Assembly: GCF_014193515.1 (NCBI RefSeq)
Contig: NZ_BLXX01000005.1
Span: forward strand, 1-64,000
DNA: 64,000 nt
Source of the DNA: Geomonas silvestris
GTDB lineage: Bacteria; Desulfobacterota; Desulfuromonadia; Geobacterales; Geobacteraceae
Direction: 5' to 3'
Made by a program: the position numbers and the translations under genes. Under the pieces are notes generated by a model. The model was given only the letters and a program-made list of their open reading frames with translations. It searched no databases and had not been told where the DNA came from. Shown one piece after another: positions 36,157 through 55,684 of this stretch (its first letter is position 1; every line of letters begins with the position of its first letter).

Positions 36157-36163
36157 CGCCCCA

Positions 36164-36570: not shown

Positions 36571-39411
36571 ATGAAGGAATCAACAGCAACCATACGCTAC
36601 CAAGGAGCGGCGGGGCGCCTTTTGGGCACGCTTTTTTCTCTCGTGCTCCTTTTGGGAGTCTTAAGCGGCACGGCGGGCGCGGCTTTGAAAGCCGTGGGGC
36701 CCATCGACCCGCTGACCTCGCTCCCCGCCTTCTACCAGGACTTGAGCAGCCTCGCGCTGCAGCCCTGTCTGGACCAGAACGGGTTCTGCATCCTGCCGCC
36801 GCCGTTCGACCCGTTGACCAGCGTCCCCTTGAGCCCGATCACCACGACCGGGCCGATCAACAGCACGAACCTGCCCGCGGAGGGGTTCTACTACTCCGCC
36901 GGGGCCCTGATGAACATCGAGGGTGGCGAGAAGGCACGGCTCGACTTCGTGCTGGAGTACGCCTTCCTCTCGGGGGTGGCCCCCACCCTGGGGCAGACCT
37001 TCCTGCGCACCGACCTGGCCAAGATGAGCAAGGGGCTCTTGACCCCCAACTCGACCTACCGGGTCACCCACCCCTACGGGAGCTTCACCTTCCGCTCGGA
37101 CGCCACCGGCAAGTCGATCAACGACGGCCCCAACGGCGTGACGGTGCGGCTCGAGGACCAGATCGGGGTGAACGCCGACTACTTCCCCCCCCTGTTCCAG
37201 GCGGCCCCCAACACCAACATCGGACCCTACCTGAGGCCCGCTGACGGCATCTTCCCGACCGCGCTGGTGAACGGGCAGGCCCACACCTACATCGGCGATG
37301 CGGTCACCCCGATCCCGGTAACCGGCGGACCCAACGGCAACATCTTCCGGATCGACCGGCTGGACGCTCTGGGTAACCCGGTCCCCGGCGCGAGCTGGTT
37401 CACCAACCTCTGGACCCTGGCCGGGCGCGTCTTCACCGACCCGATCGCCTCGCCGATGACCGTGAACCGGGCCACCTACGCCCGGGACGCCAGCAGCCAG
37501 CAGGTGGACATCTTCGCCTCCGCCGAGCGTGCCGCCATCCTGACCATCTCGGGGACCGGCATCGCCTCGACCACGCTGGACCAGGACGTCCCCAACACCG
37601 GGAAGTTCTTCGTGCACCTGCCGGTGCAGGCGCTCCCCGGCAGCCTGACCATCAGCAACTCGCTCGACCTGCCGGTGATCCCGCACCCGGTCCCGCTGGT
37701 TGACGAGGTGAACATCACCGAGTCCTTCTACAACCCGGACACCAAGGCGATCACGGTGCGCGCGGCGTCGCGCGACAAGCTGGCGCCGCTCCCCACCCTG
37801 AGCGTGCCGGCCTTCGCGACGCCCAACACGCTGGACGCCACCGGGACCGTGGTCCTCGCGCTGCCGCTCAACACCATACCGCCGCAGAGCATCACCGTGG
37901 TCTCCAGTAACGGCGGCACGGCAACCGCGCCGGTCAGCGTGGTGATCCCCCCGGCGCCGCCGGTTGCGGCGGATGACAGCGCGACCACCGCACTCAACAC
38001 GCCGGTCGTCATCGACGTGCTCTTAAACGACCTCTCCGCCGCACAACTCGACCCCGGCACGGTGCGCATCGTGAACGCCGCAGCCAACGGCAGCACCGTG
38101 GTGGCCCCCAACGGTTCGGTGATCTTCACCCCGGCCAGCAACTTCTCGGGGGCGACCAGCTTCGGCTACGACGTGATGGACAGCTTCGGCCAGCGCTCCA
38201 ACACCGCCACGGTGACCGTGAACGTCCTGTCGCCGCCGGCCCCGACCACGGTGGCCGACGCGGCGAGCACCACCCAGGGGATTGCGGTGACCATCAACGT
38301 GCTCGCCAACGACAGCGGGGTGATCAACCCGGCCTCGGTGCTGATCTCCACCCCATCCGCCAACGGCACTGCGCTGGCCAACCAAAACGGCAGCATCACC
38401 TTCACCCCGGCCGCCGGATTTACCGGCGTGACCAGCTTCGCCTACACCGTGGCGAGCCTCGCGGCCCAGCCGCTCACCTCGCAGCCGGCCACGGTCACCG
38501 TGACCGTGATCCCGCCTGCGGCCCCGCCAGCGCCGGTCGCGAACCCCGACAGCGCCTCGACCCTGACCGGCAGCGCGGTGACCATCCCGGTGCTCGCCAA
38601 CGACACCATCGGGGCACCCGGGGTGATCGACACCACCTCGGTGCTGATCGCCACCACTTCGGCTAACGGGCTGGCCGCCGCGAACCCGAACGGCACCGTG
38701 ACCTTCACGCCGGCCGCCGGCTTTGCCGGGACCACCAGCTTCAGCTACACGGTGGCCAACACCTCGGTCCCGGCGCTCAGGTCCAACGCCGCCACCGTCA
38801 CCGTGACGGTGAGCGCCCCGGCCCCGGCCCCGGTCGCCAACAACGACACCGCAACCACCACGGCCGGCACGGCGGTTAGCACCGCGGTCCTCGCCAACGA
38901 CACCATCGCGGCCCCCGGCGTGATCAACACCGGGTCGGTCCAGATCGTGAGCCAGTCGGCCAGCGGCAGCGCGGTCGCCAACGCAAGCGGCACCGTGACC
39001 TTCACCCCGGCCGCAGGCTTCACCGGAACCACCAGCTACAGCTATACCGTGGCGAACAGCTCGGTCCCGCCGCTTACCTCCAACACCGCCACGGTGACCG
39101 TCACCGTGAACGCGCTGGCGAGCCAGACCATCCAGGTGACCCGGGCCCAGTTCACCCTGTCGAGCGCCTCCTGGCGCATCGACGGCACCGTCACCCCGGC
39201 GCCGCCGGCCGGAACCACGCTCAGCATCTACAACTCCGCGCTGGTGGGCGGGCCGGTGCTGATCGGGAACCTCACCGTCGCCAACAACGGCAGCTTGACC
39301 TGGAGCTCGCCCAACGGCTCGCCGCAGCCCAACGCCGCGCGCCGGATCAGCATCCAATCGAACCAGAACCCCGCCACCAAGCTCGAGAACATCACGGTGA
39401 CGGTACGCTGA
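36571..39411 (+). CDS. Exported protein with four cadherin-like (Big_9) repeats
   Basis: A 946-residue protein with a signal peptide (about 1-37, LLGVLSGTAGAALKA). Residues about 40-440 form an unrecognised N-terminal region. Four repeats of about 95 residues follow, each with APVANPDSASTLTGSAVTIP-type starts, VLANDT and FTPAAGFTGTTSFSYTVA, the pattern of the cadherin-like/VCBS-type Ig fold. A last 80-residue domain ends LENITVTVR. No dockerin-like end and no heme motif are seen. It is first in the exported cluster and probably has a structural or adhesive role. GGGAGG precedes the ATG. Confidence 0.75.
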   Translation: MKESTATIRYQGAAGRLLGTLFSLVLLLGVLSGTAGAALKAVGPIDPLTSLPAFYQDLSSLALQPCLDQNGFCILPPPFDPLTSVPLSPITTTGPINSTNLPAEGFYYSAGALMNIEGGEKARLDFVLEYAFLSGVAPTLGQTFLRTDLAKMSKGLLTPNSTYRVTHPYGSFTFRSDATGKSINDGPNGVTVRLEDQIGVNADYFPPLFQAAPNTNIGPYLRPADGIFPTALVNGQAHTYIGDAVTPIPVTGGPNGNIFRIDRLDALGNPVPGASWFTNLWTLAGRVFTDPIASPMTVNRATYARDASSQQVDIFASAERAAILTISGTGIASTTLDQDVPNTGKFFVHLPVQALPGSLTISNSLDLPVIPHPVPLVDEVNITESFYNPDTKAITVRAASRDKLAPLPTLSVPAFATPNTLDATGTVVLALPLNTIPPQSITVVSSNGGTATAPVSVVIPPAPPVAADDSATTALNTPVVIDVLLNDLSAAQLDPGTVRIVNAAANGSTVVAPNGSVIFTPASNFSGATSFGYDVMDSFGQRSNTATVTVNVLSPPAPTTVADAASTTQGIAVTINVLANDSGVINPASVLISTPSANGTALANQNGSITFTPAAGFTGVTSFAYTVASLAAQPLTSQPATVTVTVIPPAAPPAPVANPDSASTLTGSAVTIPVLANDTIGAPGVIDTTSVLIATTSANGLAAANPNGTVTFTPAAGFAGTTSFSYTVANTSVPALRSNAATVTVTVSAPAPAPVANNDTATTTAGTAVSTAVLANDTIAAPGVINTGSVQIVSQSASGSAVANASGTVTFTPAAGFTGTTSYSYTVANSSVPPLTSNTATVTVTVNALASQTIQVTRAQFTLSSASWRIDGTVTPAPPAGTTLSIYNSALVGGPVLIGNLTVANNGSLTWSSPNGSPQPNAARRISIQSNQNPATKLENITVTVR

Positions 39412-39418
39412 CGCCCGA

Positions 39419-39447
39419 GCCGGGCCGGCCTTCAAGGCCGGCCCGGC
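39419..39447 (+). terminator. Hairpin between the cadherin-like and RCC1 genes
   Basis: GCCGGGCCGGCC, TTCAA, GGCCGGCCCGGC. It is very stable but has no T-run, so it may protect the mRNA end or attenuate rather than stop transcription. The next gene starts 55 bases later. Confidence 0.5.
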
Positions 39448-39501
39448 TTCCCCTGACGGCGCCGCCTGGGGCGGCGCACCGCTCCGCAGGGAGGATCTAC
39501 C

Positions 39502-42500
39502 ATGAAAACCTCATTGAACATGCTGCGCCGGGTGCTCCCCGCGCTTTTGATCTCGATCCTCCCGGGACTGGCCGCACCTTCCTGGGGGGCCACCCCTAAC
39601 CTCGCCGCCGGCGAGAGCCACAGCATCATCCTCAAGGCCGACGGCACCCTCTGGGCCAGCGGCGCGAACCTCTCCGGCCAGCTGGGCGACGCAAGCCGCA
39701 CCTCCCGCACTAGCGCGGTTCAGGTCGGCCTCGAGCAGGGGTGGGCCGGCGCGGCCGCCGGGGCCGAGCACACCCTCGCCGTCAAGAGCGACGGCACCCT
39801 CTGGGCCTGGGGGAATAACGCCTCCGGCCAGCTCGGCTCCCTCAGCGGTACCGGGACACCGGTCGGCACCCAGTCAAGCCCGCTCAGGATCGGCGCGGCA
39901 CGGGACTGGGGCGCCGTCGCCGCCGGGAGCGCCACCTCCTACGCCCTGAAGGCCGACGGCACCCTGTGGGCCTGGGGCGAGGGGGGGCTCGGGCAGCTCG
40001 GTAACGGCGCCACCGCGCGCCAGAACCAGCCGGTGCAGGTAGTGAACCCCGCCGGCGGGCGCTACCTCATGGTTGCCGCCGGCGCCGACCACGCCCTGGC
40101 CCTCATGGCCGACGGGTCCCTCTGGTCCTGGGGGAGTAACGCCTTCGGCCAGTTGGGGGCCGCCGGCAGCGATCCGGCCACCCCGCGCCAGGTCGTCCTC
40201 GCCGCTGCCGTTTCCGACAACGACTGGCGCGCCGTCGCCGCGGGGGGGAACTTCTCCCTCGCGTTAAAGGCGGACGGCACGCTCTGGAGCTGGGGGGACA
40301 ACGCGGCGGGGCAGCTGGGACTGGGTTCCACCCAGCCCCAGGCCGAGCCGGTGCAGGTGGGAAACGACCGGGACTGGGCGGCTCTGGCCGCCGGCGCCCT
40401 GCACGCGGTGGCGCTCAAGAGAAACGGCCGGGTCTACGCCTGGGGGGACAACAGCTCGGGGCAGCTCGGCAACGGGGGCTTGGGGCAGCTGAACGCCCCG
40501 GCGCCGGTCCCCGGCATCGGCAACCTGGTCGCGCTTTCCGCCGGCGCCTTCCATACCCTGGCGCTTTCCGCCGACGGCCGCAGCTGGGCCTGGGGGGGGA
40601 ACCTGGACGGCCAGCTTAACACCGGCAGCCAGACCGGGAGCCTCGCCCCGGCCGACGCGGGGAACGCGGGGCTTGGCTGGGTCGCCCTCGAGCCGGGAAA
40701 CCAGTTCACCCTGGCGCGCCGCTCGGACGGGAGCCTCTGGAGCTGGGGCGACAACACGAGCGGCCAGCTGGGGAACGGGACCCTCGCCACCCAGGCGACC
40801 CCCGCCGCGCTGGACGCGCGCCACGACTGGGCCGCCCACGCCGCCGGGTTCGGGCACGTGGTGGCGCTCAAGGCCGACGGCACCCTGTGGGCCTGGGGGG
40901 ACAACTCGAGCGGCCAGCTGGGGGACGGCTCCCGCAACCCGAGCACCTTCCCGATCCAGATCACCAGCACCAAGCCGACCTCGGCCGCCAACGACTGGGC
41001 CCAGCTGGCGGCGGGGGACTTCCACACCCTCGCCCTGAAGGGGGACGGCACCCTGTGGGCCTGGGGGGACAACTCGACCGGGCAGCTGGGGGACAACACC
41101 AACACCCCGATGGGGAAACAGCCCGAGCAGATCGTGACCGGCAACCCGGGCAACTTCGACAGCAACTGGATCGCCATCGCGGCCGGCGGCGGCCACTCGC
41201 TCGGGCTGCAGGCCGACGGGACCCTCTGGGCCTGGGGGGACAACAGCGACGGGCAGCTGGGCGACCCTGCGCTTTTGGGGAGCGTCAACTTCCCGAGCCA
41301 GCTCGTGAACTTCAACCCGCCCGCCGACAACCCCGGCTTCAACGGGAACTGGAAGGGGATCGCCGCGGGGTTCGCGCACTCGCTCGCGCTGCAGGCGGAC
41401 GGTACCGCCTGGGGCTGGGGGAGCAACTTCGACGGCCAGCTCGGTAACGCCGACGCGACCCTCCCGAACCCGCCGGGACAGCCCCAGCCGGTTCAGGTCG
41501 TAAACGCCGGCCCGGCCCCGTTCCTGGCGCTTTCCGCCGGCGACGCGCACAGCCTGGCGCGGAAGGCGGACGGGACGCTCTGGTCCTTCGGGCGCAACCT
41601 GGGCGGCCAGCTGGGTATCGGCAGCTTCGACAGCACCCCGGTGCCGCACCCGGTACCGCTTGCCGAAGCCACCGGCTCCTTCACCTGGAGCGCTTCCGGC
41701 ATCGGCGGCAGCCACAGCGTGGCGCTCATGGCCGACGGCACCCTGTGGGGATGGGGGAACAACTTCTCCGGCCAGCTGGGGGACGGCTCCGACCAGGACC
41801 GCAACCGCCCGGCCGCGCTCCTGGAGGGGTTCGCCAGCGCCCCGACGTCCCTCGACCTGGGGACCGCCTTCCTGGGGGGGGCGGGCCTTTCCGGGAACCT
41901 GAGCCTCGGCAACAGCGGCAACGGCAACCTCTTCGTGACCGGCATCACCATCTCGGGCGCCGACGCGGCGCAGTTCGCCGTGGACCCGGGGAGCTGCGGC
42001 CTGCAGCTCGCCTTCCTGGTCCCCGCCGGGGGGAGCTGCCAGCTCAAGGTGAGCTTCCAGCCCGGTGCTGCCAGCGGGTCCCGCAGCGCCCTTCTGGAGA
42101 TCGCCACCAGCGACCCGGTGGCGCCCAGGCGCCAGGTGGCGCTCGCGGCACTCGCCGCCCAGCACCAGATCACCCTTGCCGCCGGTCCCAACGGGAGCAT
42201 CTTCGGACCGGTGCTGGTGAACGAGAACGCCACCCCGAGCTACGGCATCGTGGCGGCCACCACCTTCCACGTGGCCGACGTCAAGGTGAACGGGGTATCG
42301 AAGGGGGCGCTCACCACCCTCACCCTGCCGCCGGTAACCGGCGACCTGACCATCGCGGCGAGCTTCGCCATCGACACCTTCCCGGTGAGCTTCGCCTCGG
42401 CGGGCAACGGCACCCTCTCGGGGACCCTGAGCCAGAGCGTCCCCTACGGTTCCGCCAGCGCCACGGTCACCGCCCTCCCGGCAACCGGCTACCACTTCGT

Positions 42501-43266
42501 AAACTGGACCGAGGGGGGAAGCATCGTGGGGACCAACGCCGCGCTCAGCGTCTCCAGCATCACCGCGGCGCGCAGCTTCACCGCCAACTTCGCCATCAAC
42601 AGCTACCCGGTGACCTTCGCCTCCGGCGGCAACGGCACCCTGACCGGCAGCGTGAGCCAGAGCGTCGTCCACGGCGCCTCGGCGACTACCGTGAGCGCCG
42701 TTCCGGCACTCGGGTACCACTTCGTGAACTGGACCGAGGCCGGGCAGGTGGTCGGGAGCGGCACCGCCCTCACCCTCGGCAACGTGACCGGGGCGCGCAG
42801 CGTCACCGCGAACTTCGCCATCGACACCTTCACGGTGAGCGCCGCAAGCGACGCCAAGGGGAGCGTCTCCCCGGCCGGGGTGAGCACCGTGAACTACGGT
42901 TCGAGCGTCACCTTCAGCTTCACACCCGCCGCCGGCTACCAGGTGGTGGACGTCCTGGTGGACGGGGTCTCCCAGGGGGCGCCCGGCTCCTACACCATCT
43001 CCAACGTGACCGCAAACGGCCACACGGTACAGGTGGTATTCATCCCCGACGGGGATCTAAACGGCGACGGCCAGGTTACCATCGCCGACGCTTTGATGGC
43101 CCTGCAGATCGCAGTAGGTCTGAACCAGCCCACACCGGCCCAACTGCGGCACGGTGACCTGGCGCCCCTGGATGTGAGCGGCATCCCGGCGCCAGATGCC
43201 CAGATTCAGGTGGCCGATGCCCTGGTCATCCTGAAAAAGTCGGTGGGGCTTACCTCCGGGTTCTAG
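39502..43266 (+). CDS. Exported RCC1 double-propeller protein with InlB-like repeats and a dockerin-like end
   Basis: A 1,254-residue protein with a signal peptide (to about residue 30). Fourteen RCC1-type repeats follow (DGTLWAWGDNSSGQLGD and variants, about every 50-60 residues, to about 780), enough for two seven-bladed propellers. A beta-sandwich linker (about 785-890) follows, then about four InlB-type B-repeats (GYHFVNWTEGGSIVGTN, FAIDTF). The last 70 residues are dockerin-like: DLNGDGQVTIADALMALQ, a spacer, then IQVADALVILKKSVG. The Ca-binding DLNGDGQ loop is intact; the second (APDAQIQVADA) is degenerate. GGGAGG precedes the ATG. Confidence 0.85.
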   Translation: MKTSLNMLRRVLPALLISILPGLAAPSWGATPNLAAGESHSIILKADGTLWASGANLSGQLGDASRTSRTSAVQVGLEQGWAGAAAGAEHTLAVKSDGTLWAWGNNASGQLGSLSGTGTPVGTQSSPLRIGAARDWGAVAAGSATSYALKADGTLWAWGEGGLGQLGNGATARQNQPVQVVNPAGGRYLMVAAGADHALALMADGSLWSWGSNAFGQLGAAGSDPATPRQVVLAAAVSDNDWRAVAAGGNFSLALKADGTLWSWGDNAAGQLGLGSTQPQAEPVQVGNDRDWAALAAGALHAVALKRNGRVYAWGDNSSGQLGNGGLGQLNAPAPVPGIGNLVALSAGAFHTLALSADGRSWAWGGNLDGQLNTGSQTGSLAPADAGNAGLGWVALEPGNQFTLARRSDGSLWSWGDNTSGQLGNGTLATQATPAALDARHDWAAHAAGFGHVVALKADGTLWAWGDNSSGQLGDGSRNPSTFPIQITSTKPTSAANDWAQLAAGDFHTLALKGDGTLWAWGDNSTGQLGDNTNTPMGKQPEQIVTGNPGNFDSNWIAIAAGGGHSLGLQADGTLWAWGDNSDGQLGDPALLGSVNFPSQLVNFNPPADNPGFNGNWKGIAAGFAHSLALQADGTAWGWGSNFDGQLGNADATLPNPPGQPQPVQVVNAGPAPFLALSAGDAHSLARKADGTLWSFGRNLGGQLGIGSFDSTPVPHPVPLAEATGSFTWSASGIGGSHSVALMADGTLWGWGNNFSGQLGDGSDQDRNRPAALLEGFASAPTSLDLGTAFLGGAGLSGNLSLGNSGNGNLFVTGITISGADAAQFAVDPGSCGLQLAFLVPAGGSCQLKVSFQPGAASGSRSALLEIATSDPVAPRRQVALAALAAQHQITLAAGPNGSIFGPVLVNENATPSYGIVAATTFHVADVKVNGVSKGALTTLTLPPVTGDLTIAASFAIDTFPVSFASAGNGTLSGTLSQSVPYGSASATVTALPATGYHFVNWTEGGSIVGTNAALSVSSITAARSFTANFAINSYPVTFASGGNGTLTGSVSQSVVHGASATTVSAVPALGYHFVNWTEAGQVVGSGTALTLGNVTGARSVTANFAIDTFTVSAASDAKGSVSPAGVSTVNYGSSVTFSFTPAAGYQVVDVLVDGVSQGAPGSYTISNVTANGHTVQVVFIPDGDLNGDGQVTIADALMALQIAVGLNQPTPAQLRHGDLAPLDVSGIPAPDAQIQVADALVILKKSVGLTSGF

Positions 43267-43294
43267 ATCTGCCAGCAGCTGCGGCGTCATCATC

Positions 43295-43334
43295 GGTGGC
43301 TGTCCGGGGTCCGAGCCGGGCAGCCACCATTTTT
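43295..43334 (+). terminator. Terminator after the RCC1 gene
   Basis: GGTGGCTG, a loop containing a secondary CCGG pairing, CAGCCACC, then ATTTTT. A second hairpin with seven T follows at about 43417-43450 (GCACCCGG ... CCGGGTGC), so transcription is stopped twice before the peroxidase gene. Confidence 0.75.
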
Positions 43335-43416
43335 CTCCGGGGCGGGCAGCGGCACGCCCTCCCGCTGGCCCGCCGTCATTTGACGGAGACGGAGCCGGGA
43401 GCAGCTCCCGGCCGCC

Positions 43417-43450
43417 GCACCCGGTCCGCCCGGCCGGGTGCCGTTTTTTT
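43417..43450 (+). terminator. Second terminator after the RCC1 gene
   Basis: GCACCCGG at 43417 pairs with CCGGGTGC ending at 43441; TTTTTTT follows two bases later. Confidence 0.7.
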
Positions 43451-43617
43451 GTCAGCGACAGATTCCGGGCAGTGCGCCGCATCCCGCGCGGCTCCTAGTG
43501 TTTACGGGGCGTTGCCGGGCGCAGCGCTTCAGGTGCCGACAACCTTTTGGCCTTGAGCGCACCGGCCACATCCGCCGCAACTTCCGCCCCTTAGCCGCCT
43601 GAGCGCTTCCGGGGGCG

Positions 43618-43634
43618 GTGGCGCGTTAATTGCT
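43618..43634 (+). promoter_or_regulatory. Sigma-54 promoter of the peroxidase gene
   Basis: GTGGCGCGTTAATTGCT: GG at 43620-43621, ten bases, GC at 43632-43633. It matches the consensus YTGGCACGrNNNTTGCW except at the leading Y, one base in the -24 block and the r position. It lies 60 bases upstream of the start codon, after two terminators. The nearest activator gene is 34723-36156. Confidence 0.8.
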
Positions 43635-43694
43635 AATGAAAAGGCTCGTTCCCGCCGATGTAGTACCCAGGACCCCCCTGCAAGAGGACACCGT

Positions 43695-46322: not shown

Positions 46323-46347
46323 CCTCCCGGTCCTGTAACCCTCCTAA

Positions 46348-46382
46348 GGCGAGGGGCGCTCGGTGCGCCCCTCGCCTTTTTT
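46348..46382 (+). terminator. Terminator after the peroxidase gene
   Basis: GGCGAGGGGCGC, TCGGT, GCGCCCCTCGCC, then six T. Near-perfect intrinsic terminator. Confidence 0.88.
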
Positions 46383-46866: not shown

Positions 46867-48663
46867 ATGAAAATGAAATCTTTAGTGGGGGCATTCTTAG
46901 TTGGTTTGTTGGCGGTGGCCCAGGGGTGCGGCGGCGGAGGCGGCGGCGCCGCTTCGGGCCCGGCTCCCGGCAGCACCGTCTTGAGCGGCACGGCAACCAA
47001 GGGACCGATCGCCGGCGGGACCGTGAAGGTGTTCGCGATCGTCTCGAGCGCCACCTCCAACCCGCGCAGCGGCGTACCCCGCCTGAGCTCGTCGGCCCTG
47101 GCCCAGGGGAGTACCGGCTCGGACGGCAGCTACAGCATCACCCTCCCGCCGGGGAGCGCCAAGGGGGGACTTTTGGTGCAGGTGACCGGCGGCAGCTATA
47201 AGGACGAGGCGACCGGCGCCTCGCGCAGCGTGGACGACCAGTTCGGCCCCAGCGGCATGCGGGCCATCTTCGGCAACGTATCGAGTGCCGCCCGCGGCGG
47301 CCAGTTGAGCGGCTACGTCACCCCCTTCACCGAGATGGCCTACCAGGCCTCCGGCGGCGACCTGCGGGCCCAGGGGATCGACGACGCCAACCGCCGCGTG
47401 GCGGGCGCCTTCGGACTTCCGGACCTGACCAAAACCCGGCCGCTCGATCCCAACACGCCGTTCCCCGCAAACGCGAGCGCGGATTCCAAGAAGTACGCCC
47501 TGGCGCTGGCGAGCCTCTCCCAGTACCAGAAGGACTACGGCGGGATCAAGAAACTCTCCGAGATCGAGACCGAGCTGGAGGCCGAGGCCAACAACGGGGT
47601 GCTGACCGGCAGCACCGACAACAAGTTCCGCTCCTCCGGTAACAACTTCGCCGCCAGCGCCGGCAACCCGAACCCGAGCCTGTTGGGGAGCGGCGACAAC
47701 GCGAGCGCGCCGACCGAGATCCAGGGGAGCGTGACACCGGCGAGCCTCCCCATCGGGGGCGCGGCCCTGATCCAGCTCAGCGTGAAGACCGGCGGCGGGA
47801 GCGCGGTCCCCGACGGCACCCTGGTGAGCATCTCCAGCAGCCTCGGTACCCTCTCCGCAGCCAGCGGCGCCACCGTCGGCGGGCAGGTCAGCTTCTCGCT
47901 CTCGAGCGCAGCCCCGGGGAACGCCACGGTTACCGCGCGCTCGGGCTCGGCGAGCTTCACGAGCGGCCCCATCGCCTTCTTCGACCCGAACCAGCCCGCC
48001 GGCCTCTCCTTGAGCGCCAGCAGTTCCTCGGGGATCGTGAACGGCCAGGGGGTACAACTCTCCGCCAGCGTGACCCGGGTGGCCGGCGGTCCGGTCCCCA
48101 ACGGCAGCGTGGTCAGCTTCGCCATAAGCTCCGGGTCCGGCCTCCTCTCCAGCGTCGGCACCACCGCAAACGGCATCGCCACCACGACCCTGACCAGTGC
48201 GGTCGCCGGCTCGGTCACCGTTACCGCGAGCATCGGCTCCTTAAGCCAGAGCATCCCGGTTAGCTTCGTGGTGCAGCCCACCCGGGCCGTGGTCAAGGTG
48301 CGCACCACCGGCCTCCTGCCGCTGGGAACCCTGATCGGCGGCATCGGCGCCACCGTCACCTACTCCGGCGGCAAGGGGCTCAGCATCACCGCGAGCAGCG
48401 CCGACATCGGCGTCTCCGGCGCCGGCCTGGGCTCCACCATGGTCCCCAACGTGAACACGGCAGGCCAGGTGACCCTGGGGCTTATCAACGTAAGCGGCAT
48501 CGGCAGCGGCGAGTTCGCCACCCTGAACTTCGCCATCGCGGCAGGGAACTTCCCCACCATCCAGGATTTCGCCATCTCCAGCTTGGGGCTGAGCATCATC
48601 GATACCGCCACCATCAATATCCCCGGCATGGGGGTTGGGATCGCGAGCGTGACCCTGCAGTAG
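46867..48663 (+). CDS. Lipoprotein with Ig-like domains and a cohesin-like C-terminal module
   Basis: A 598-residue protein with a likely lipoprotein signal (GLLAVAQGCGGGG, Cys about 21). It has a region starting LSGTATKGPIAGGTVKVFA, and two bacterial Ig-like (Big_1-type) domains (about 280-475) of the form GTLVSISSSLGTLSAASGAT. The last 120 residues resemble a cohesin module: IGGIGATVTYSGGKGLSI, then GQVTLGLINVSGIGSGEF followed by ATLNFAIAAG, the late beta-strands of cohesins. As the only cohesin-like protein near three dockerin-like proteins, and anchored by lipid, it is a good candidate for a surface scaffold. The cohesin call is from pattern only. Confidence 0.65.
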   Translation: MKMKSLVGAFLVGLLAVAQGCGGGGGGAASGPAPGSTVLSGTATKGPIAGGTVKVFAIVSSATSNPRSGVPRLSSSALAQGSTGSDGSYSITLPPGSAKGGLLVQVTGGSYKDEATGASRSVDDQFGPSGMRAIFGNVSSAARGGQLSGYVTPFTEMAYQASGGDLRAQGIDDANRRVAGAFGLPDLTKTRPLDPNTPFPANASADSKKYALALASLSQYQKDYGGIKKLSEIETELEAEANNGVLTGSTDNKFRSSGNNFAASAGNPNPSLLGSGDNASAPTEIQGSVTPASLPIGGAALIQLSVKTGGGSAVPDGTLVSISSSLGTLSAASGATVGGQVSFSLSSAAPGNATVTARSGSASFTSGPIAFFDPNQPAGLSLSASSSSGIVNGQGVQLSASVTRVAGGPVPNGSVVSFAISSGSGLLSSVGTTANGIATTTLTSAVAGSVTVTASIGSLSQSIPVSFVVQPTRAVVKVRTTGLLPLGTLIGGIGATVTYSGGKGLSITASSADIGVSGAGLGSTMVPNVNTAGQVTLGLINVSGIGSGEFATLNFAIAAGNFPTIQDFAISSLGLSIIDTATINIPGMGVGIASVTLQ

Positions 48664-48700
48664 GGTTTCGGGGGGCGCCCAAGCGGCGCCCCCGAAACCC
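48663..48700 (+). terminator. Long GC-rich hairpin after the cohesin-like gene
   Basis: GGGTTTCGGGGG(G)CGCC pairs with GGCGCCCCCGAAACCC around CAAGC. No T-run. Probably an mRNA-stabilising or partial terminator element, since the next gene is about 90 bases on. Confidence 0.5.
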
Positions 48701-48792
48701 AGGGACACTCGGCCCGTTGATTCGGTCTGCCGGCCAGCCGCCACGGGGTGCCCACCCGGCCCCGGCAGACCCTGCACTGTAAGGAGGATGCG

Positions 48793-50226
48793 ATGAAACG
48801 ACGTGAATTCTTGAAATTGAGCGCTGCCGGGGTGGCCACCCTGTTCATCGGCCGGATTCCCGGATTGGGTATCGAGGACGCCTTTGCCGCCACCCAGGTG
48901 CTGGAGATCAGCATCACCGACGCGCTGAAGGACATGGTCACCCACAACGAGATCAACACTGCCCAGAGCTATTTCTGGATCTACAAGATGAAGGCGGACG
49001 GGATCGAGGTCCCCGCCGACTGCCCGGGCCCCACCATCGTGGCCCTCAAGGGGGAGTCGATCACCGTCACCGTAACGAACGACCTGGACGAACCGCACGC
49101 CTTCTACATCCCGGGGCGGCGCCCCGACGATCCGCCGCTCTTCGACAGCGGCGAGATCAAGCCGGGAGCGACCTTCACCGGCACCTTCACCGCCAGCCAG
49201 TCCGGCGCCTTTTTGTACTACGACAACCTGAACGCGCCCGTTAACCGGGTCATGGGGTTGCACGGCGCCCTGGTGGTCCGCCCCACGGCGGGGGTGGCGG
49301 GGCACAAGATGACCCCCTACGACGACCCGAGCCCGCACGTGCAGGACCTCTACGACGCCTTCGGCGACCCCGGCGTCTTCCCGGGACTCGCCTGGGAGCA
49401 GGGGGACCCGAGCACCCACACCCCCCCCTTCAGGCAGTACGTCTGGCTCACCCACCAGGTAAGCCCGGCGCTCTTCGCCGAGGTGGGGAATCTGCCGCCG
49501 GGGCAGCTCTACGACCCCCAGAAGTTCGAGGACGCCTTCCTGCGCGACCCGTTCAGCGCGACCGGCGCCAACCGGCTCCCGAAGTTCTTCACCATCAACG
49601 GGCAGTCCGGCTTCTTCTCCCACTTCAGCCCGGGGATCACCCCGATGGGGCGGGTGGGGGAACCGGTGGTGATCCACATCCTGAGCGCGGGACTTTGGAC
49701 CCACTCGATGCACATCCACGCGAACCACATCTTCATCACCAGCGAGGACGGCGTGGTTACCGAGAACCCGCTCTGGGTCGACGTCTACACCGTGAAACCG
49801 ATGCAGTGGATCGACTACACGGTCCCCTACATGCGCCCACCCGACATCCCGAACCTGCGCGGCATCGGTCGCCCCGACCTGGGGATGCCGATTGGCAACG
49901 GCAACCGGGCCTATCCCCCGCTGCAGGAGTTCGACATGTACTACCCGGGGCCGGGCGAGGACATCGCCCAGGATGCCAACGGCAACCCGATCGACCTGAA
50001 GCAGCGCATGTCGCCTCTGTGCTTCCCGATGCACGACCACTCGGAGCCGAGCCAGACCGCCCAGGGGGGGAACTACAACTGCGGGCTCATCTCGGGGATC
50101 TACTTCGTCGGCGACCGGAACACCCCGGGGGCGATGAACTTCCCGATGGACGAGGACTTCGCCATGATGTTCCGCAACATCCGCGGCATCGCCGCCACCG
50201 GACCGGCCCCGGGACCCACGCCGTAA
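48793..50226 (+). CDS. Tat-exported multicopper oxidase-like protein
   Basis: A 477-residue protein with a twin-arginine signal (MKRREFLKLSAAGVATLFIG). Cupredoxin features: CPGPTIVALKGESITVTVTN and GLHGALVV in the first part. In the C-terminal part are H304-SMH307-IH309-ANH312 (the HxxHxH of multicopper oxidases), then C410-FPMH414-DH416, an incomplete version of HCHxxxH. The first-domain HxHG is absent (only EPHAFYIPG). So it looks like a copper oxidase that keeps the third-domain copper ligands and has lost, or never had, the first-domain ones. Ribosome binding site AAGGAGG. The next gene supplies the missing motifs. Confidence 0.75.
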   Translation: MKRREFLKLSAAGVATLFIGRIPGLGIEDAFAATQVLEISITDALKDMVTHNEINTAQSYFWIYKMKADGIEVPADCPGPTIVALKGESITVTVTNDLDEPHAFYIPGRRPDDPPLFDSGEIKPGATFTGTFTASQSGAFLYYDNLNAPVNRVMGLHGALVVRPTAGVAGHKMTPYDDPSPHVQDLYDAFGDPGVFPGLAWEQGDPSTHTPPFRQYVWLTHQVSPALFAEVGNLPPGQLYDPQKFEDAFLRDPFSATGANRLPKFFTINGQSGFFSHFSPGITPMGRVGEPVVIHILSAGLWTHSMHIHANHIFITSEDGVVTENPLWVDVYTVKPMQWIDYTVPYMRPPDIPNLRGIGRPDLGMPIGNGNRAYPPLQEFDMYYPGPGEDIAQDANGNPIDLKQRMSPLCFPMHDHSEPSQTAQGGNYNCGLISGIYFVGDRNTPGAMNFPMDEDFAMMFRNIRGIAATGPAPGPTP

Positions 50227-50242
50227 CGGCCAAGGCTCTAAC

Positions 50243-50310
50243 TTCTATGTTTTATGTTCTAAGTTCTAGGTTCTAAGTTCTAGGTTCTCTGTTTTGTGTT
50301 GTTAGTTCTG
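50243..50310. repeat. Heptad repeat array between the two copper-protein genes
   Basis: About ten 7-base units of the type TTCTAAG or TTCTAGG in a row (TTCTATG, TTTTATG, TTCTAAG, TTCTAGG, TTCTAAG, TTCTAGG, TTCTCTG, TTTTGTG, TTGTTAG). The same heptads lie between dnaK and grpE. Confidence 0.8.
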
Positions 50311-50335
50311 CTGAAATGTTCTGAGGAGGCACGCC

Positions 50336-52534
50336 ATGTCCGTTCAAAATCCCAAATATGCAATAGCCCGCTGGTCCGTGGTCGGTATGGAGGGGATGTG
50401 GTCCAAGATGTTCGACCCCCCCACCGAGAGCCCGGTGACCCCGGAACTCCTGGCGCCAACGAATCCGGTCCCCGAGGTGATGGCCGCCGCCGGGTACCAG
50501 AACCCGCCGGCCACCCCGCACACCGTGCAGCGCGACCTCCTGCACGGCCTTAAGATGCCGACCTGGGACGGCAAGAAGCAGCTCTTCTTCATGACCTTCG
50601 CCGACAACGACAACCCGGCGGCGAAGCAGGGGACCTACCCGGGACCTACCATCAGGATCCCGCGCGGGGTGGTCTACCACGCCGAGACCTCGGCCAAGGG
50701 GCCGCCGCCGCACACCATCCACTGGCACGGCATCGAGCCCACGCCGATGAACGACGGGGTGGGGCACTGCTCGATGGAGCTTGGCCAGTACACCTACCAG
50801 TGGCAGCCCAACTTCATCGGGTTCTACTTCTACCACTGCCACAGAAACACCATGCAGCACTTCGAGTTCGGCCTGTTCGGCGCGATGCTCATCGAGCCCC
50901 CGGACGCCTACTTCGCCACCCAGGTGCTGGGGGTCGACACCGCCCCGATCGGGCACTGCCGGGACGGCAAGCGGCGCACCGCGGCGAACCTCGCCGACTT
51001 CCCGCAGTTCCCCGGCTTCAACGGGAACCTCTTGACCGACCCGGACCCCTGGACCGGCGACCCGCAGCTCAAGTTCCCCAGCGACCCGCACGCCATGACC
51101 GTCCCCTACGACGTGGAGGCCCTCTGGGTCCTGGACGACCGGGACTCGGTCTGGAGCGACCTGGCTCCCAACGCCCGGCAGACCTATCCCCAGCACGGCA
51201 TCAAGCCGGGGATCAACGACAACTTCCACGGCCACGCCGGGGCCCTGGCCCAGCCGGGCGACTTCTTCGCCTTCAACGACTTCAACCCCGACTACTGGTT
51301 CGTGACCGGCATCCCGGTCCCCGCCCTCAAGGGGGGGACCGGCACCATCGTGGCGAACGCCGAGATCCCGCCCGAGCTGAACAGCGGGGTCTCCGGGACC
51401 CAGATCCCGATCAACGCCCAGGTGGGGCAGACCATCCTGGTGCGCTGCCTGGACGCCGCCTATAACAGCCTGCGCGTCACCTTCCCGGTGAACGTGGTGA
51501 TCATCGCCTGGGACGGCCGGGCCCTGGGGCAGCCCCCCTTCGGGTTCAACGAGGCCTACCTGGTGCCGGCGGGGACCACCATCCACATGAGCACCGCGCG
51601 CCGCTTCGACGCCCTGATCCGGGTCAACGCCCCCTTCACTGGGTACGCGGTGGCCGAGTTCATCAACACCCGCTCCCAGATTCCCGGTGAGAGCGAGGAG
51701 GTGCTGATGACCTGCCGCATCCCGATCAACATCGGCGGCACCCCGCAGCAGGCCCCGACCTTCACCGCCTTCGGGCGCCTTCTCGACCCGCTGGGGCTGC
51801 CGCTAGCCGGCGCCAGCATCACGGTGAACCCGAAGAGCCAGGGGGGGAGCGCACCGGTCGCCGTGGTAAGCGATGCCGGCGGCAACTTCCAGGTCCCGGG
51901 GCTCATCAACAGCAGCTACGAGATCACCCCGAGCCTTGCCGGCTTCAGCTTCGCACCGGCCAGCCGGATCATCACGGTGAACGACCAGAACGTGAAGGCC
52001 CAGAACTTCAGCGCCAGCGCCGCGGTGGGAACCGTGAGCGTCGCGCCGAGCCGGACCAGCCCGCAGCCTCCCGGACTGCCGGGCGGCATCACCTTCAGCG
52101 CCGATGTCCAGGGGGGGAGCGGCCCCTTCGAGTACCAGTTCTGGCTGGTAAACGGCGCCGACAAGACGCTGATGCGCGACTTCGCCGCCAATCCCAAGTG
52201 GAACTGGGACACCCTGGTGAGCGCGGCGGGGAGCTTCACTATCGAGGTGCACGTACGCCAGGTCGGCGCGACCTTGGCCTCGGCCGAGAAAACCGCCAGC
52301 ATCGACTTCGCGCTGGCCGGGCAGCCCCCGACCTTCACCCCCAACAGCTACAACATCCAGGAGGCGCTCGACGCGCTGCGCATCGAGGTGGGGCTTAAGA
52401 ATCCGACCAACGCGGAACTGGCCCGCTACGACGTGGCCCCGCTCCTCAACGGGATCGCCAAGCCCGACGGCAAGATCGACCTGGCCGACGTCCTCGAGAT
52501 CCTGCGCATGGCGGTCGGACTGGCTCCTTTGTAA
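50336..52534 (+). CDS. Multicopper oxidase-like protein with a dockerin-like end and no signal peptide
   Basis: A 732-residue protein. The N-terminal cupredoxin part has the first-domain copper motif H129-WH131-G and H167-C168-H169 with H175, the HCHxxxxxH type. Residues about 450-560 contain a carboxypeptidase-regulatory-like beta-sandwich (FGRLLDPLGLPLAGASITV). Another Ig-like domain follows, then a dockerin-like end (YNIQEALDALRIEVGLKN, spacer, DGKIDLADVLEILRMAVG) whose first Ca loop is lost. GAGGAGG precedes the ATG and a stop lies in frame just upstream, so no signal peptide exists. Export may depend on the Tat-exported partner (inference). Confidence 0.75.
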   Translation: MSVQNPKYAIARWSVVGMEGMWSKMFDPPTESPVTPELLAPTNPVPEVMAAAGYQNPPATPHTVQRDLLHGLKMPTWDGKKQLFFMTFADNDNPAAKQGTYPGPTIRIPRGVVYHAETSAKGPPPHTIHWHGIEPTPMNDGVGHCSMELGQYTYQWQPNFIGFYFYHCHRNTMQHFEFGLFGAMLIEPPDAYFATQVLGVDTAPIGHCRDGKRRTAANLADFPQFPGFNGNLLTDPDPWTGDPQLKFPSDPHAMTVPYDVEALWVLDDRDSVWSDLAPNARQTYPQHGIKPGINDNFHGHAGALAQPGDFFAFNDFNPDYWFVTGIPVPALKGGTGTIVANAEIPPELNSGVSGTQIPINAQVGQTILVRCLDAAYNSLRVTFPVNVVIIAWDGRALGQPPFGFNEAYLVPAGTTIHMSTARRFDALIRVNAPFTGYAVAEFINTRSQIPGESEEVLMTCRIPINIGGTPQQAPTFTAFGRLLDPLGLPLAGASITVNPKSQGGSAPVAVVSDAGGNFQVPGLINSSYEITPSLAGFSFAPASRIITVNDQNVKAQNFSASAAVGTVSVAPSRTSPQPPGLPGGITFSADVQGGSGPFEYQFWLVNGADKTLMRDFAANPKWNWDTLVSAAGSFTIEVHVRQVGATLASAEKTASIDFALAGQPPTFTPNSYNIQEALDALRIEVGLKNPTNAELARYDVAPLLNGIAKPDGKIDLADVLEILRMAVGLAPL

Positions 52535-52655
52535 GGGAGGGGCTAGGGATTGGGGACCAGGGGCTGGGGACTGAAACATCCCTTCGCCCTTGGTTTCCAG
52601 CTTCGACCCCAACTACAGAAAACCGCAACGGGGCCGCAAGGCCGGGGAGGACGCC
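52535..52655. repeat. Short G-rich repeat before tatA
   Basis: GATTGGGGACCAGGGGCTGG followed by GGACTG is made of short repeated GGGGACT/GGGGCT units. The rest is the tatA leader, with GGGGAGG before the ATG. No gene seen. Confidence 0.4.
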
Positions 52656-52820
52656 ATGTTTGGTATCGGCATGCCGGAACTTATCGTGATCCTGTTCATC
52701 GTGCTTTTGGTCTTTGGCGCCGGCAAGCTCCCGGAGGCGGGACGCTCGCTGGGCCAGAGCATCCGTAACTTCAAACAGGCCGCGGACGACCAGGAACACC
52801 CGGAACCGCCCAAGAGTTAG
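52656..52820 (+). CDS. tatA: Twin-arginine translocase subunit TatA
   Basis: A 54-residue protein: short N-terminal membrane helix ([16 protein letters not shown]) then [17 protein letters not shown] amphipathic helix and a charged tail, the TatA/TatE layout. It forms the pore for folded proteins with twin-arginine signals. The neighbouring gene at 48793 has such a signal, so this copy is probably dedicated to the cluster. tatB and tatC are not here. The start at 52656 follows GGGGAGG; an upstream extension is a shadow. Confidence 0.9.
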
Positions 52821-52992
52821 ACGCACCCTGCCGCAAGGCAGCACCCGTGGGCTCGGCACCATGCCGGCTCCGGGTGTCGGCGCGGTGCCTCCTTTCCCTC
52901 CTGGGCAACCGGGGGGGAATTTTTCAGATCTGCTGCAGCCGGAACTTGACTTACCAGGCTTCGGCTGGCAGCACCACGGAGCGAGGTTTATC

Positions 52993-53940
52993 ATGAAAAC
53001 GTTAGCCACTTTCTTTGCCGTTATGTTCTGCTCCGTCTCCTGGGCTCTTGCCGCCGAGGTGCCGGCGGCCCCGGCGGCCGCTCCCTCGGCGCTCCGCAGC
53101 GAACAGGGCGGGTTCAACCTGCAGCTAAGACTTCCCGATTCCGGACTGAAGCTCGGCCCCAATACTGCCGATATTACGGTACAGGACCAGGCGGGAAACC
53201 CCGTCGAGGGGGCGCAGCTCACCGTGACACCCTGGATGCCCAGCATGGGGCACGGGGTCTGGGACAAGCCGGTGGTGAAGGAGTTGGGCGGGGGACGCTA
53301 CCACGTGGAGAACGTGGTGATCATCATGGGCGGGGTGTGGGAGCTTAAGGTCGCCCTCAAAAAGGGGGAGCGCGAAGACCGCGCCGTCTTCAGCGCCACG
53401 GTGGCCGAGGCGGCACCGGCCCAGGCTTCCCCCGAGCCGGAGCGTACCGGGTACGACCGGACCCTGGCCGACTACAACGTACCGAACGTGACGCTCATCA
53501 ACCAGGACGGCCAGAAGGTGAACCTGCGCCAGCTTCTCGAGTCGGGGAAGCCGGTCATCGTCGACTTCATCTTCACCACCTGCACCACGATCTGCCCGGT
53601 GCTCTCGGCCGGCTTCAGCAACCTGCGCCGCACCCTGGGGGACGAGGCGCACAAGGTGCAGCTGGTCTCGATCTCCATCGACCCGGAAAACGACCGCCCC
53701 GAGAAACTCAAGACGTACCTGGAGCGCTTCGGCGGGCCGGAGGGGTGGGAGTTTCTCACCGGGAGCCGGGAGGAGGTGGGGCGGGTGCTGCGCGCCTTCA
53801 ACGCCTTCGTGGTCGACAAGATGTCACATGAGCCGCTCTACCTTCTGCACGCGCCCAACGCGCCGCAGTGGGTGCGCATCAAGGGGCTCATCAAGAAAAG
53901 CGATCTGCTGAACGAATACCGGAAAATGGAGAACCGATGA
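52993..53940 (+). CDS. FixH/YtkA-like plus SCO1/SenC-like copper protein
   Basis: A 315-residue exported protein (signal to about residue 22). The first domain (about 37-125) is FixH/YtkA-like with TPWMPSMGHG, a Met/His copper-type motif. The second (about 150-315) is SCO1/SenC-like: the CTTIC motif (CxxxC, in FTTCTTICPV) and the partner His near SHEPLYLLHAP. SCO proteins deliver copper or reduce cysteines for copper oxidases, so it fits as the assembly factor for the two upstream copper proteins. Fusion of the two domains is unusual but known. It overlaps the next gene by four bases. Confidence 0.85.
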   Translation: MKTLATFFAVMFCSVSWALAAEVPAAPAAAPSALRSEQGGFNLQLRLPDSGLKLGPNTADITVQDQAGNPVEGAQLTVTPWMPSMGHGVWDKPVVKELGGGRYHVENVVIIMGGVWELKVALKKGEREDRAVFSATVAEAAPAQASPEPERTGYDRTLADYNVPNVTLINQDGQKVNLRQLLESGKPVIVDFIFTTCTTICPVLSAGFSNLRRTLGDEAHKVQLVSISIDPENDRPEKLKTYLERFGGPEGWEFLTGSREEVGRVLRAFNAFVVDKMSHEPLYLLHAPNAPQWVRIKGLIKKSDLLNEYRKMENR

Positions 53941-55640
53941 CGATCCCCCGACTGGCTGTGCGCCTTTTCCCCCTGGTGCTGTTGTTGATCCTGGTCCCGG
54001 CGCTCGCCGCCGCCGAGGAAGCGGTGGCCGGCCGCCCGGCTGCCGAGGCGCTCAGGCTGGGCGAGGCGATGTACCAGCGGGGAATCCTCCCCTCGGGGAA
54101 GCCGATGCGGGCCCTGGTGCAGGGGGACCTGGAGCTTTCCGGGACCATGACCACCTGCGCGAACTGCCACATGCGCAGCGGCCTGGGCTCCGCGGAGGGG
54201 GGGATCTTCACCCCTCCCACCAGCGGCAAGAAGCTCTACGGGCCGCTCACCGGACAGCAGGACATCCCGGGCCCCACCATGAGCCGCTCCATGTTCCAGA
54301 GCCCGCCGCGCCCCGCCTATGACGACGCGAGCCTTTTGCGGGCGCTCCTCTACGGCGTCGACCCCACCGGGCGCAAGTTCAGCGCCACCATGCCGCGCTA
54401 CCTCCTGGAGCCGGACGAGGCCCGGATCCTGCTCCACTACATAAAGCAGCTCTCCTCCACCACCTCGCCCGGGATCACCGACACCCGGATGCACCTCGCC
54501 ACCATCGTCTCGGACGGGGTCGCCCCCCAGGCCTGGGAGGCCCAGCTCGGTCCGCTGAAGGCCTTCTTCGACAAGGAGTGGAACGCCCGGCTCGCCATCC
54601 TGGGCTCCCAGTGGAACGCGCGCTGGTTCGGCTCCGGCGGGAAGCCAAGCGGCGGGCTCACCTACCGCGAGGTCTCCCTCGAGGTCTGGCGGCTCAAGGG
54701 GAAGCCCGAGACCTGGGAGACCCAGCTTGCCGAGTACTACCGCAAAAAGCCCGTCTTCGCGGTGGTGGGGGGGATGGTCTCCGGGAGCTGGAGCCCGGTG
54801 CACCGCTTCTGCGAGAAGGGGAAGATCCCCTGCCTGTTCCCGGCGACCGAACTCCCTCAGGTCGCCGAGCACGACCTCTACACACTCTACTTCTCCAAGG
54901 GGTACTTCCAGGAGGGGGAATCCGCCGCCAAGTACCTCTCGCGCGTGGTTGAGCTCCCGCCGGGGCGGGAGGTGGTCCAGGTGTTCCGGGACGACGAGGC
55001 CGGACGGGCCCTAAGCCGCGGCTTCGCCGAGACCTGGCTTAAGTTCGGCAAGAACCCGGTGCGCGAGGTGAAGCTTGAGGGGACCGGGGCGACCGGCGCC
55101 ACCTTCTGGAAAGAGTTGGCGGCCCGGCACCCGGGCGCGGTGCTGCTCATCTGGCTCCCCGCCGGGGACCTCGCCGGGGTGGAGCAGTTGGCCCTCGCCC
55201 CGCAGCGCCCCTCGACCCTGTTCTTCTCCTCGACGCTCCTCGAGGACCGCTCCCAGGCACTTCCCGAGCCGCTGCGCGACTTCAGCTTCCTGACCTGGCC
55301 CAAGAGGCTTCCCGGCGACGGCGACTACACCCGCCAGTTGGTGCGCGGCTGGCTGGGGAACAAGAAGCTCCCGGTCGCGGACCTCGCCACCTCGGCGCAG
55401 AGCTACTTCATAACCCGGATGCTTTCGGTCGCCCTCATCGACATGGGGACCGACTACTACCGCGACTTCTTCCTGGACCTCCTGGACTGCACCCCGGACC
55501 AGGTGAACAGCTCGCTGCGCTACCCGGTGCTCAGTTTCGGCCCCGGCCAGCGCTACGCCTCGAAGGGGTGCTACATCGTGGCGCTGGGGAAGGGGGCCCA
55601 GCCCAAGCTGGTCAAGAAGAGCGATTGGGTGATCTACTGA
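53937..55640 (+). CDS. Monoheme cytochrome c fused to a periplasmic binding-protein domain
   Basis: A 567-residue exported protein (signal to about 26). The N-terminal cytochrome c domain has C74-ANC77-H78, with a likely distal Met in ATMPRYLLEPDEA. A type I periplasmic binding-like domain (about 185-560) follows, with VFAVVGGMVSGSWSPVHRFCEKGKIPCLFPATELPQ-like lobe structure. Such a fusion suggests a redox protein that also binds a small ligand or a partner. The start lies in the ATGA overlap with the SCO gene, so the two are co-translated. Last gene of the cluster. Confidence 0.82.
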   Translation: MTIPRLAVRLFPLVLLLILVPALAAAEEAVAGRPAAEALRLGEAMYQRGILPSGKPMRALVQGDLELSGTMTTCANCHMRSGLGSAEGGIFTPPTSGKKLYGPLTGQQDIPGPTMSRSMFQSPPRPAYDDASLLRALLYGVDPTGRKFSATMPRYLLEPDEARILLHYIKQLSSTTSPGITDTRMHLATIVSDGVAPQAWEAQLGPLKAFFDKEWNARLAILGSQWNARWFGSGGKPSGGLTYREVSLEVWRLKGKPETWETQLAEYYRKKPVFAVVGGMVSGSWSPVHRFCEKGKIPCLFPATELPQVAEHDLYTLYFSKGYFQEGESAAKYLSRVVELPPGREVVQVFRDDEAGRALSRGFAETWLKFGKNPVREVKLEGTGATGATFWKELAARHPGAVLLIWLPAGDLAGVEQLALAPQRPSTLFFSSTLLEDRSQALPEPLRDFSFLTWPKRLPGDGDYTRQLVRGWLGNKKLPVADLATSAQSYFITRMLSVALIDMGTDYYRDFFLDLLDCTPDQVNSSLRYPVLSFGPGQRYASKGCYIVALGKGAQPKLVKKSDWVIY

Positions 55641-55684
55641 CGGTTTCAGGTCTTTGGTTGTGATCAGCAGGAGGGAGTGCAGTC

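Follow-up and report, generated by a model that had tools for sequence, protein, structure and literature searches.

Insert-type dockerin tails and cohesin-fold lipoproteins as a recurrent candidate anchoring pair for exported proteins in Geomonas and its relatives

Cohesins and dockerins are known already outside cellulosomes, and Peer et al. reportedly described such non-cellulosomal modules in 2009. Here we report on a cluster of eight genes (A to H, every one on the + strand) that spans positions 36571-55640 of the window, the whole 64-kb stretch analyzed, which is the initial 64 kb of contig 5 of the 5.1-Mb genome of Geomonas silvestris. Three of its proteins end in a dockerin-like tail and another, the lipoprotein D, ends in a cohesin-like module (CLM). 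The best structural match of this module is the cohesin of Archaeoglobus fulgidus (2xdh), a cohesin without a cellulosome, and the folds predicted in Geomonas are the same as in that system. Compared with non-cellulosomal modules of this type, the Geomonas CLM forms a many-copy family, mostly of lipoproteins and often encoded beside a tailed partner, in Geobacter relatives, and the Geomonas dockerins carry an insert in the second loop. Non-cellulosomal cohesin folds of Clostridium perfringens (2vo8, 2jh2) are also among the top structural matches; in that organism, as the entry titles suggest, the cohesin-like modules sit on the glycoside hydrolases themselves. The anchoring of the Ruminococcus flavefaciens cellulosome offers a further likeness, in that dockerin-bearing proteins are caught by an envelope-bound cohesin. 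ScaE of R. flavefaciens is attached to the wall of a Gram-positive cell, whereas the Geomonas cohesin would be lipid-anchored in a Gram-negative one, with no catalytic hydrolases in the cargo scanned.

Among anaerobes with extracellular electron transfer, anaerobic methanotrophic (ANME) archaea and their sulfate-reducing partners are reported to carry many cohesins and dockerins, for which adhesion or partner contact is suggested in the parts of those reports on which we draw (PMC9012536, PMC10553843, PMC5244752). According to the same parts, the ANME modules were found by domain annotation, with scaffoldin-like proteins of up to 5 cohesins and ABC-transporter binding proteins as common cargo, whereas the Geomonas proteins are mostly single-cohesin lipoproteins with redox, propeller and immunoglobulin-like (Ig) cargo. 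In redox-fluctuating soil, Geobacter genes for dockerin, cupredoxin and laccase proteins were highly expressed after O2 pulses and were connected with Fe(III) reduction, while other dockerins of the study were taken as a sign of cellulose use, as far as the excerpt at hand goes (PMC6199725). The likeness to Geomonas lies in dockerins on copper-oxidase-type proteins of the same bacterial group; a cohesin partner is not mentioned in that excerpt.

We found no description of the paired tail and cohesin-lipoprotein system in the open-access PMC literature, covered mostly as titles and the starts of abstracts. To our knowledge, the envelope retention of large exported proteins, copper oxidases included, is poorly understood in Geobacter relatives. 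The recurrent pair, mostly unnamed by the family libraries scanned, would give a testable answer to this question, would allow function-based names for many unknown lipoproteins and giant exported proteins, and would supply new cohesin-dockerin sets for engineering. It would also explain in concrete terms why bacteria that are not regarded as cellulose degraders have dockerins, and the copper oxidases among its cargo bear on metal and oxygen chemistry.

We consider it likely that the insert-type tails are dockerins, that the CLM is their cohesin, and that the two form a plug-and-socket pair tethering exported proteins to the outer membrane. The computed support lies in the predicted folds, the C-terminal position of the tails, the recurrent adjacency of the two genes and their co-occurrence across genomes. 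The tails stand at 43042-43257 in the RCC1 protein B (C-terminal end ADALVILKKSVG), at 46101-46319 in the peroxidase C (LDALVILKKVVG) and at 52337-52528 in the second multicopper oxidase of the cluster, protein F or MCO2 (ADVLEILRMAVG), all on the + strand. An earlier note on this DNA had pointed to these three ends as dockerin-like, and their positions are confirmed. A profile built from six tails (three from the window, two from the Geomonas limicola locus L072 and one from L073, both loci having themselves been found via the cohesin module) matches the window tails with E values of 5.9e-36, 3.7e-34 and 5.1e-30, respectively, each being itself a profile seed. The same profile recurs genome-wide, with 10 copies in the source genome at E<=0.001 and 11 at E<=1, and the tail ends no more than 5 residues from the C-terminus in 64/65 distinct tailed proteins of the loci examined. 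Because of these 10 copies and this terminal position, the pattern exceeds chance.

The subtype is recognized by the second Ca loop, in which the Asp positions are retained and eight residues are inserted (alignment consensus DVAPL-NG-P-PDG); the motif D-[VLI]-[AGS]-P-[LFMY] is present in 58/65 distinct tails. The first Ca loop, of normal form in the alignment, is intact in the tails of B and C and lost in that of MCO2 (TPNSYNIQEAL). Since a simple loop-1 pattern matches only 29/65 tails, the first loop appears to be often degenerate, as in F.

When the tails were compared with Pfam Dockerin_1 (PF00404, cut-off 22.9 bits), a check that the earlier note had proposed, the three window tails stayed short of the family threshold: the RCC1 protein scored 14.7 bits, with the first loop alone covered, the isolated peroxidase tail scored 20.1 bits (E 0.00073), and neither the whole peroxidase nor the whole MCO2 protein gave a Pfam dockerin match at E<=1. 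The same Pfam model matches 19/23 aligned tails at E<=0.1 (best 9.4e-8). By predicted fold the dockerin reading stood. The tail modeled was that of relative L119, whose identity is 57% with the RCC1 tail of the window and 51% with its peroxidase tail; the model has block means of 95-98 for the predicted local distance difference test (pLDDT) and three helices (at 13-23, 31-37 and 55-65), and thus the dockerin three-helix fold with two loop-helix motifs. Over the Clostridium thermocellum dockerin 2ccl_B (Foldseek rank 15, E 0.067, probability 1.00) it superposes at 1.4 A across 67 columns, with a template modeling (TM) score of 0.85 by target length. We take the tails of B, C and F for divergent dockerins of a distinct insert-type subtype.

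The module proposed as their partner occupies 48271-48660 (+ strand), at the C-terminus of D, and belongs to a family found in 93/196 relatives, with up to 14 matches per genome. Its AlphaFold2 model (pLDDT 96.4, predicted TM score (pTM) 0.89) has the cohesin jelly-roll fold. With this model, Foldseek gives 6 matches at E<=0.001, each of them to a cohesin or cohesin-dockerin structure, and the same holds throughout the top 15 ranks; in the cohesin-dockerin entries the matched chain was assigned to cohesin by its length. The best match, 2xdh, has E 1.4e-4, TM 0.64 and 17% identity, and the others include R. flavefaciens 4iu2 and 2zf9 as well as C. perfringens 2vo8 and 2jh2. Against a cohesin hidden Markov model the window CLM scores 10.8 bits, compared with a best of 7.3 among 390 shuffled and 5.2 among 78 reversed sequences, and a profile of 78 CLM modules scores the Pfam cohesin of a secretin from the same genome at 19.1 bits. 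By its predicted fold the CLM is a cohesin; the link by sequence is thin, and as a cohesin by descent the CLM is probable rather than proven. The stretches of D upstream of it match Pfam Big_1 (two stretches, the better one at residues 382-468), so that D has one cohesin-like module.

The lipid anchor proposed in the earlier note is borne out by a lipobox in D (AQGC-GGGG). A lipobox pattern, sought anywhere before the module so that long proteins such as the 1751-residue one in L099 could match by chance, is present in 46/54 distinct CLM proteins, and the remaining 8/54 have, by eye, a hydrophobic run before a cysteine. The residue after the lipobox cysteine of D is glycine. Under the +2 rule known from E. 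coli, a glycine in this place directs a lipoprotein to the outer membrane, and D would sit there for this reason.

Some CLM proteins depart from this architecture. L101 and L124 encode lipoproteins with two tandem cohesin modules, 3' of one tailed protein, which might be divalent holders. The 1751-residue protein of L099 (6108-11363) carries both kinds of module, a cohesin in its interior (E 2.7e-6) and a dockerin tail at its C-terminus. At L090 (6102-6803), a 233-residue Ig-domain lipoprotein stands directly 3' of a tailed gene, in the usual place of the cohesin lipoprotein, and its C-terminus may be a divergent CLM that the profile misses.

Across 19 genomes of the genus, the six-tail profile finds 102 tails and the CLM family profile (A1, 28 seed sequences) finds 81 matches. 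For 43/81 CLM matches, a tail on the same strand is found at most 1.6 kb upstream, versus 0.11 expected under uniform placement, and 41/102 tails have a CLM at this distance downstream. None of these 43 pairs comes from the window or the G. limicola clusters, which supplied five of the six profile seeds; extending the distance to 2.2 kb brings the paired CLM to 47/81, the gain being four window-type clusters. In the source genome itself a tail is found upstream of 7/8 CLM matches, including a weak tail (C5:258770, E 0.0017) and the window pair at 1.95 kb, the surroundings of the eighth match (C4:88456) lying outside the comparison. Among the 42 strongest CLM listed from genomes beyond the genus, at least 20 are paired with a tail, versus 0.02 expected, a lower bound that uses 98 tails among the matches listed. 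The two profiles also occur together: among 196 relatives, 93 have tail and CLM, 9 a tail alone, none a CLM alone and 94 neither, counts for which a Fisher value is not a clean probability, since the relatives share ancestry. Copy numbers of tail and CLM per genus genome are correlated (Spearman 0.95). Distance matrices of tails and neighboring CLM in 51 adjacent pairs, a few of which share a tail, correlate at r 0.51 (best of 2000 permutations 0.20), and at r 0.26 among divergent comparisons alone. In L087 (6105-15335) two pairs stand side by side, an insert-type tailed multicopper oxidase followed by a CLM lipoprotein, and a canonical dockerin protein followed by a PEP-CTERM protein whose match to cohesin is weak (15.6 bits). 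The window is one case of a pair of tail and CLM that recurs through the genus and the order.

The gene set of the window is kept in part. G. limicola (L072) retains B to H and the end of A, and G006 (L116) retains the lipoprotein, both multicopper oxidases, the SCO1 protein and H, with the C-terminal end of a peroxidase at the contig edge. The lipoprotein of G016 (L115), of the same type, has beside it two peroxidases and a copper oxidase of another kind, each with a tail, and in G094 (L117) four tailed proteins precede the lipoprotein, among them a peroxidase and an A-type protein. The cluster is whole in G. limicola and re-mixed in other relatives, the copper oxidase being replaceable or absent. 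Much of the set is conserved, the peroxidase in particular, while other members change, so that the scattering in relatives which the earlier note named as a refutation is seen in part. A tailed peroxidase, or its end, adjoins a near-full-length lipoprotein in 4/5 relatives (L072, L115, L116 and L117; not L118) while the oxidase changes, which speaks for function rather than accident.

Several observations weigh against the proposed pairing. At the level of the modules, the last ~130 residues of D give no match to Pfam Cohesin (PF00963) at E<=1 and do not reach the gathering score, so that the cohesin of the earlier note, upheld by the AlphaFold2 model and Foldseek, was not recovered by Pfam. 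Pfam Cohesin matches 1/28 CLM family sequences (E 3e-5), and in the outputs shown no CLM module scanned reached a Pfam or NCBIfam cut-off. Run against PDB sequences, the CLM profile retrieves three ribosomal S21-type chains only, judged to be chance, and no cohesin. Alignment of the CLM by hhalign with 13 canonical cohesins of the phylum, six further rows (duplicates and three intermediate-looking ones) being left out, gives a probability of 14% (P 0.0019), with the aligned region in register. When the tail profile is compared with PDB sequences in the same way, a Ruminococcus dockerin ranks first (E 0.0025), and the matches mix dockerins with ordinary EF-hand proteins.

At the level of the genomes, 61/102 tails have no CLM within 1.6 kb downstream and 38/81 CLM have no tail within 1.6 kb upstream; four of these 38 have a tail at 1.7-2.1 kb, five have one 2.5-2.7 kb downstream, and the rest have one farther away or none. 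In 13/19 genus genomes a lone CLM gene lies ~40-45 kb from a lone tail gene on the opposite strand. One such example is found in G012 (C3:458607 and 503728), where the two genes are perhaps an unlinked pair. The near-full-length lipoprotein of L118 has no tail within 18 kb, three tails being present elsewhere in that genome. Furthermore, 9/196 genomes have tails but no CLM at these thresholds, and other tail receptors may consequently exist. Within the window, a terminator-like hairpin follows C (46346-46378, + strand, 14 pairs and then a T-run) and a possible terminator with a 13-pair stem follows B (43295-43328, + strand). They suggest separate transcripts, and the one between C and D weighs against a single transcript, so that the peroxidase gene may be transcribed separately from the lipoprotein gene; terminator-like sites in the region number 11 versus 11.9 in shuffles, that is, they show no excess.

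In the mechanism that we favor, tailed proteins would be exported, would then fold and bind Ca, and their tails would plug into a cohesin carried by a nearby-encoded lipoprotein of the outer membrane, which would keep the cargo on the envelope. The system would be a Ca-dependent, non-covalent anchor for exported proteins, with a largely oxidative load in the window, consisting of a peroxidase, a putative split multicopper oxidase and an RCC1 propeller; the redox cargo named in the earlier note is indeed present as a tailed peroxidase and a tailed copper oxidase. The copper motifs of the two oxidases are complementary, HSMHIH and HDH in MCO1 (protein E) and HIHWHG and YHCHRNTMQH in MCO2, as if one multicopper oxidase had been split over two chains. 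MCO2 probably hitch-hikes on MCO1, exported by twin-arginine translocation (Tat), as a folded pair that would be anchored through the MCO2 tail; this fits the way the signals are divided between the two proteins, with a Tat signal in E alone and a tail in F alone. We infer the binding itself, its Ca dependence, the membrane and the face of it, and which of the three tails uses D; the surface exposure of the earlier note, as against a position on the periplasmic face, is not supported.

A different role for the tails, which seems improbable to us, would be that of export addresses docking to a cohesin on a secretin, with the lipoprotein as an accessory (pilot or chaperone) that hands the cargo over. 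The source genome does encode a secretin of 996 residues (L093:9628-12618, G000:C4, - strand) with a C-terminal Pfam cohesin (E 1.3e-7); the last 160 residues of the secretin are conserved in 19/19 genus genomes, and it is this cohesin that the CLM profile scores at 19.1 bits. However, there is one secretin match per genus genome, whereas CLM copy number follows tail copy number, and in the 52 loci and the window that were scanned the tails stand beside CLM genes, the secretin locus having none. Prepilin-like genes are seen by eye near this secretin (Pfam Secretin), pointing to the type II secretion or type IV pilus class, and a neighboring gene encodes a protein of 427 residues with a Pfam cohesin and, by eye, an EF-type end. 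Both kinds of cohesin could also belong to one general sorting system, in which the insert-type tail would be an address, the secretin cohesin would recognize cargo for export and dedicated cohesin lipoproteins, every one fitted to a tail of its own, would hold it on the outer surface. We regard this extension as unlikely, though not far-fetched; if true, it would be a non-covalent counterpart of sortase or type IX secretion system (T9SS) anchoring, with oxidases and a peroxidase as its cargo in the window.

The earlier note had pictured a scaffold-type assembly, that is, a multi-enzyme redox scaffold on which peroxidase, copper oxidase and propeller would be held together by the lipoprotein as a single particle. 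The recurrence of peroxidase and copper oxidase beside the lipoprotein, even where the oxidase differs (L115), agrees with such a particle. However, the window lipoprotein has one cohesin for three dockerins, lipoproteins with two modules occur only in L101 and L124 among the distinct CLM proteins listed, and three ligands would compete for the single site unless the lipoprotein oligomerizes, so that we find this version very improbable. Because one cohesin serves three tails in the window, alternative occupancy of many lipoprotein copies would be expected in the anchoring mechanism, and not a fixed three-enzyme particle.

We give very little credence to the possibility that tail and CLM are independent domains of a surface toolkit, co-inherited without binding. 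Adjacent genes can duplicate together, and adjacent duplicated pairs yield correlated trees without binding, the relatives not being independent; both points count against reading the correlated distance matrices as contact. The predicted interface speaks neither for nor against a docked pose: at several loci a tail gene shares its reading frame with the cohesin gene that follows, six being readable as a single chain through the stop codon, and the one-chain model of tail and CLM from L119 (42 rows) has both domains at high confidence, a poorly predicted linker and a pTM of only 0.57, too low to claim a docked pose on our rough yardstick of ~0.47 for two unrelated domains and >=0.65 for a firm dock. 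On the other side, the repeated pairing of a cohesin-fold with a dockerin-fold module, partners elsewhere, is hard to explain without binding.

The cargo is varied. In the source genome, insert-type tails are found on a DUF5122 propeller (L085), Lcl_C/MBG proteins (L086, L091), a multicopper oxidase (L087), a Vps10/BNR-type propeller (L088), an NHL propeller with Ig domains (L089), an Ig protein (L090) and a 2508-residue YDG/MBG protein (L092), and relatives have tails on an NHL propeller (L107), an Ig-type protein (L119), an Lcl_C/MBG protein (L123) and one protein without a firm match (L114). Domains with glycosidase-derived names occur among them, Glucodextran_B (for instance in C, L085, L089, L107 and L119) and CHB_HEX_C_1 (L087, L092); these are accessory Ig-like domains, not catalytic ones. 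No catalytic hydrolase above cut-off was found in 20 tailed proteins scanned (19 insert-type and 1 canonical), the sole catalytic glycosidase signal being a GH43 match in L114 (E 0.0025, 17.7 bits, cut-off 32.2). A cellulosome-like system for polysaccharide breakdown, suggested by the fact that cohesins and dockerins are best known from cellulosomes, by these domain names and by the way dockerin transcripts of Fe(III) reducers are read in the excerpt of PMC6199725, has next to no probability in our view, the catalytic signal being limited to that sub-threshold GH43. A cellulosome in the strict sense, with a multi-cohesin scaffoldin and tailed glycoside hydrolases, was considered and rejected, D having one cohesin and the cargo no hydrolase above cut-off.

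The eight genes of the cluster, all on the + strand, are as follows in order. Protein A (36571-39411) is exported, has 946 residues with an N-terminal domain and four Big_9/cadherin-like (tandem-95) repeats, and lacks a dockerin; in the relatives L073 and L111 (identical copies) and L117, proteins with an A-type N-terminal domain end in a dockerin tail. Protein B (39502-43266, 1254 residues) combines an RCC1 beta-propeller, a choice-of-anchor D domain and InlB-B-like repeats with its C-terminal dockerin. Protein C (43695-46322, 875 residues) is a di-heme MauG/MbnH-like peroxidase with two CxxCH motifs, Ig-like domains and a C-terminal dockerin, its NCBIfam matches all being under their cut-offs. 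The lipoprotein D (46867-48663) has 598 residues, with an N-terminal domain before the Big_1 stretches and the CLM. MCO1, the Tat-signal multicopper oxidase (protein E, 48790-50226), lacks a dockerin, and MCO2 (F, 50336-52534) has a CarboxypepD_reg domain besides its oxidase and dockerin parts and no signal peptide seen by eye. Protein G (52993-53940) joins a YtkA-like part to a SCO1/SenC copper chaperone and has orthologues in L072 and L116, and protein H (53937-55640) has a cytochrome region with one CxxCH motif and a periplasmic-binding-protein domain. Rfam gave no match at gathering score in 36000-56000, and a sigma-70 promoter scan found 1 site versus 1.2 expected. Directly upstream of the cluster, as read by eye, lie genes for a histidine kinase (32527-34719) and a sigma-54-type response regulator (34723-36156), which may control it.

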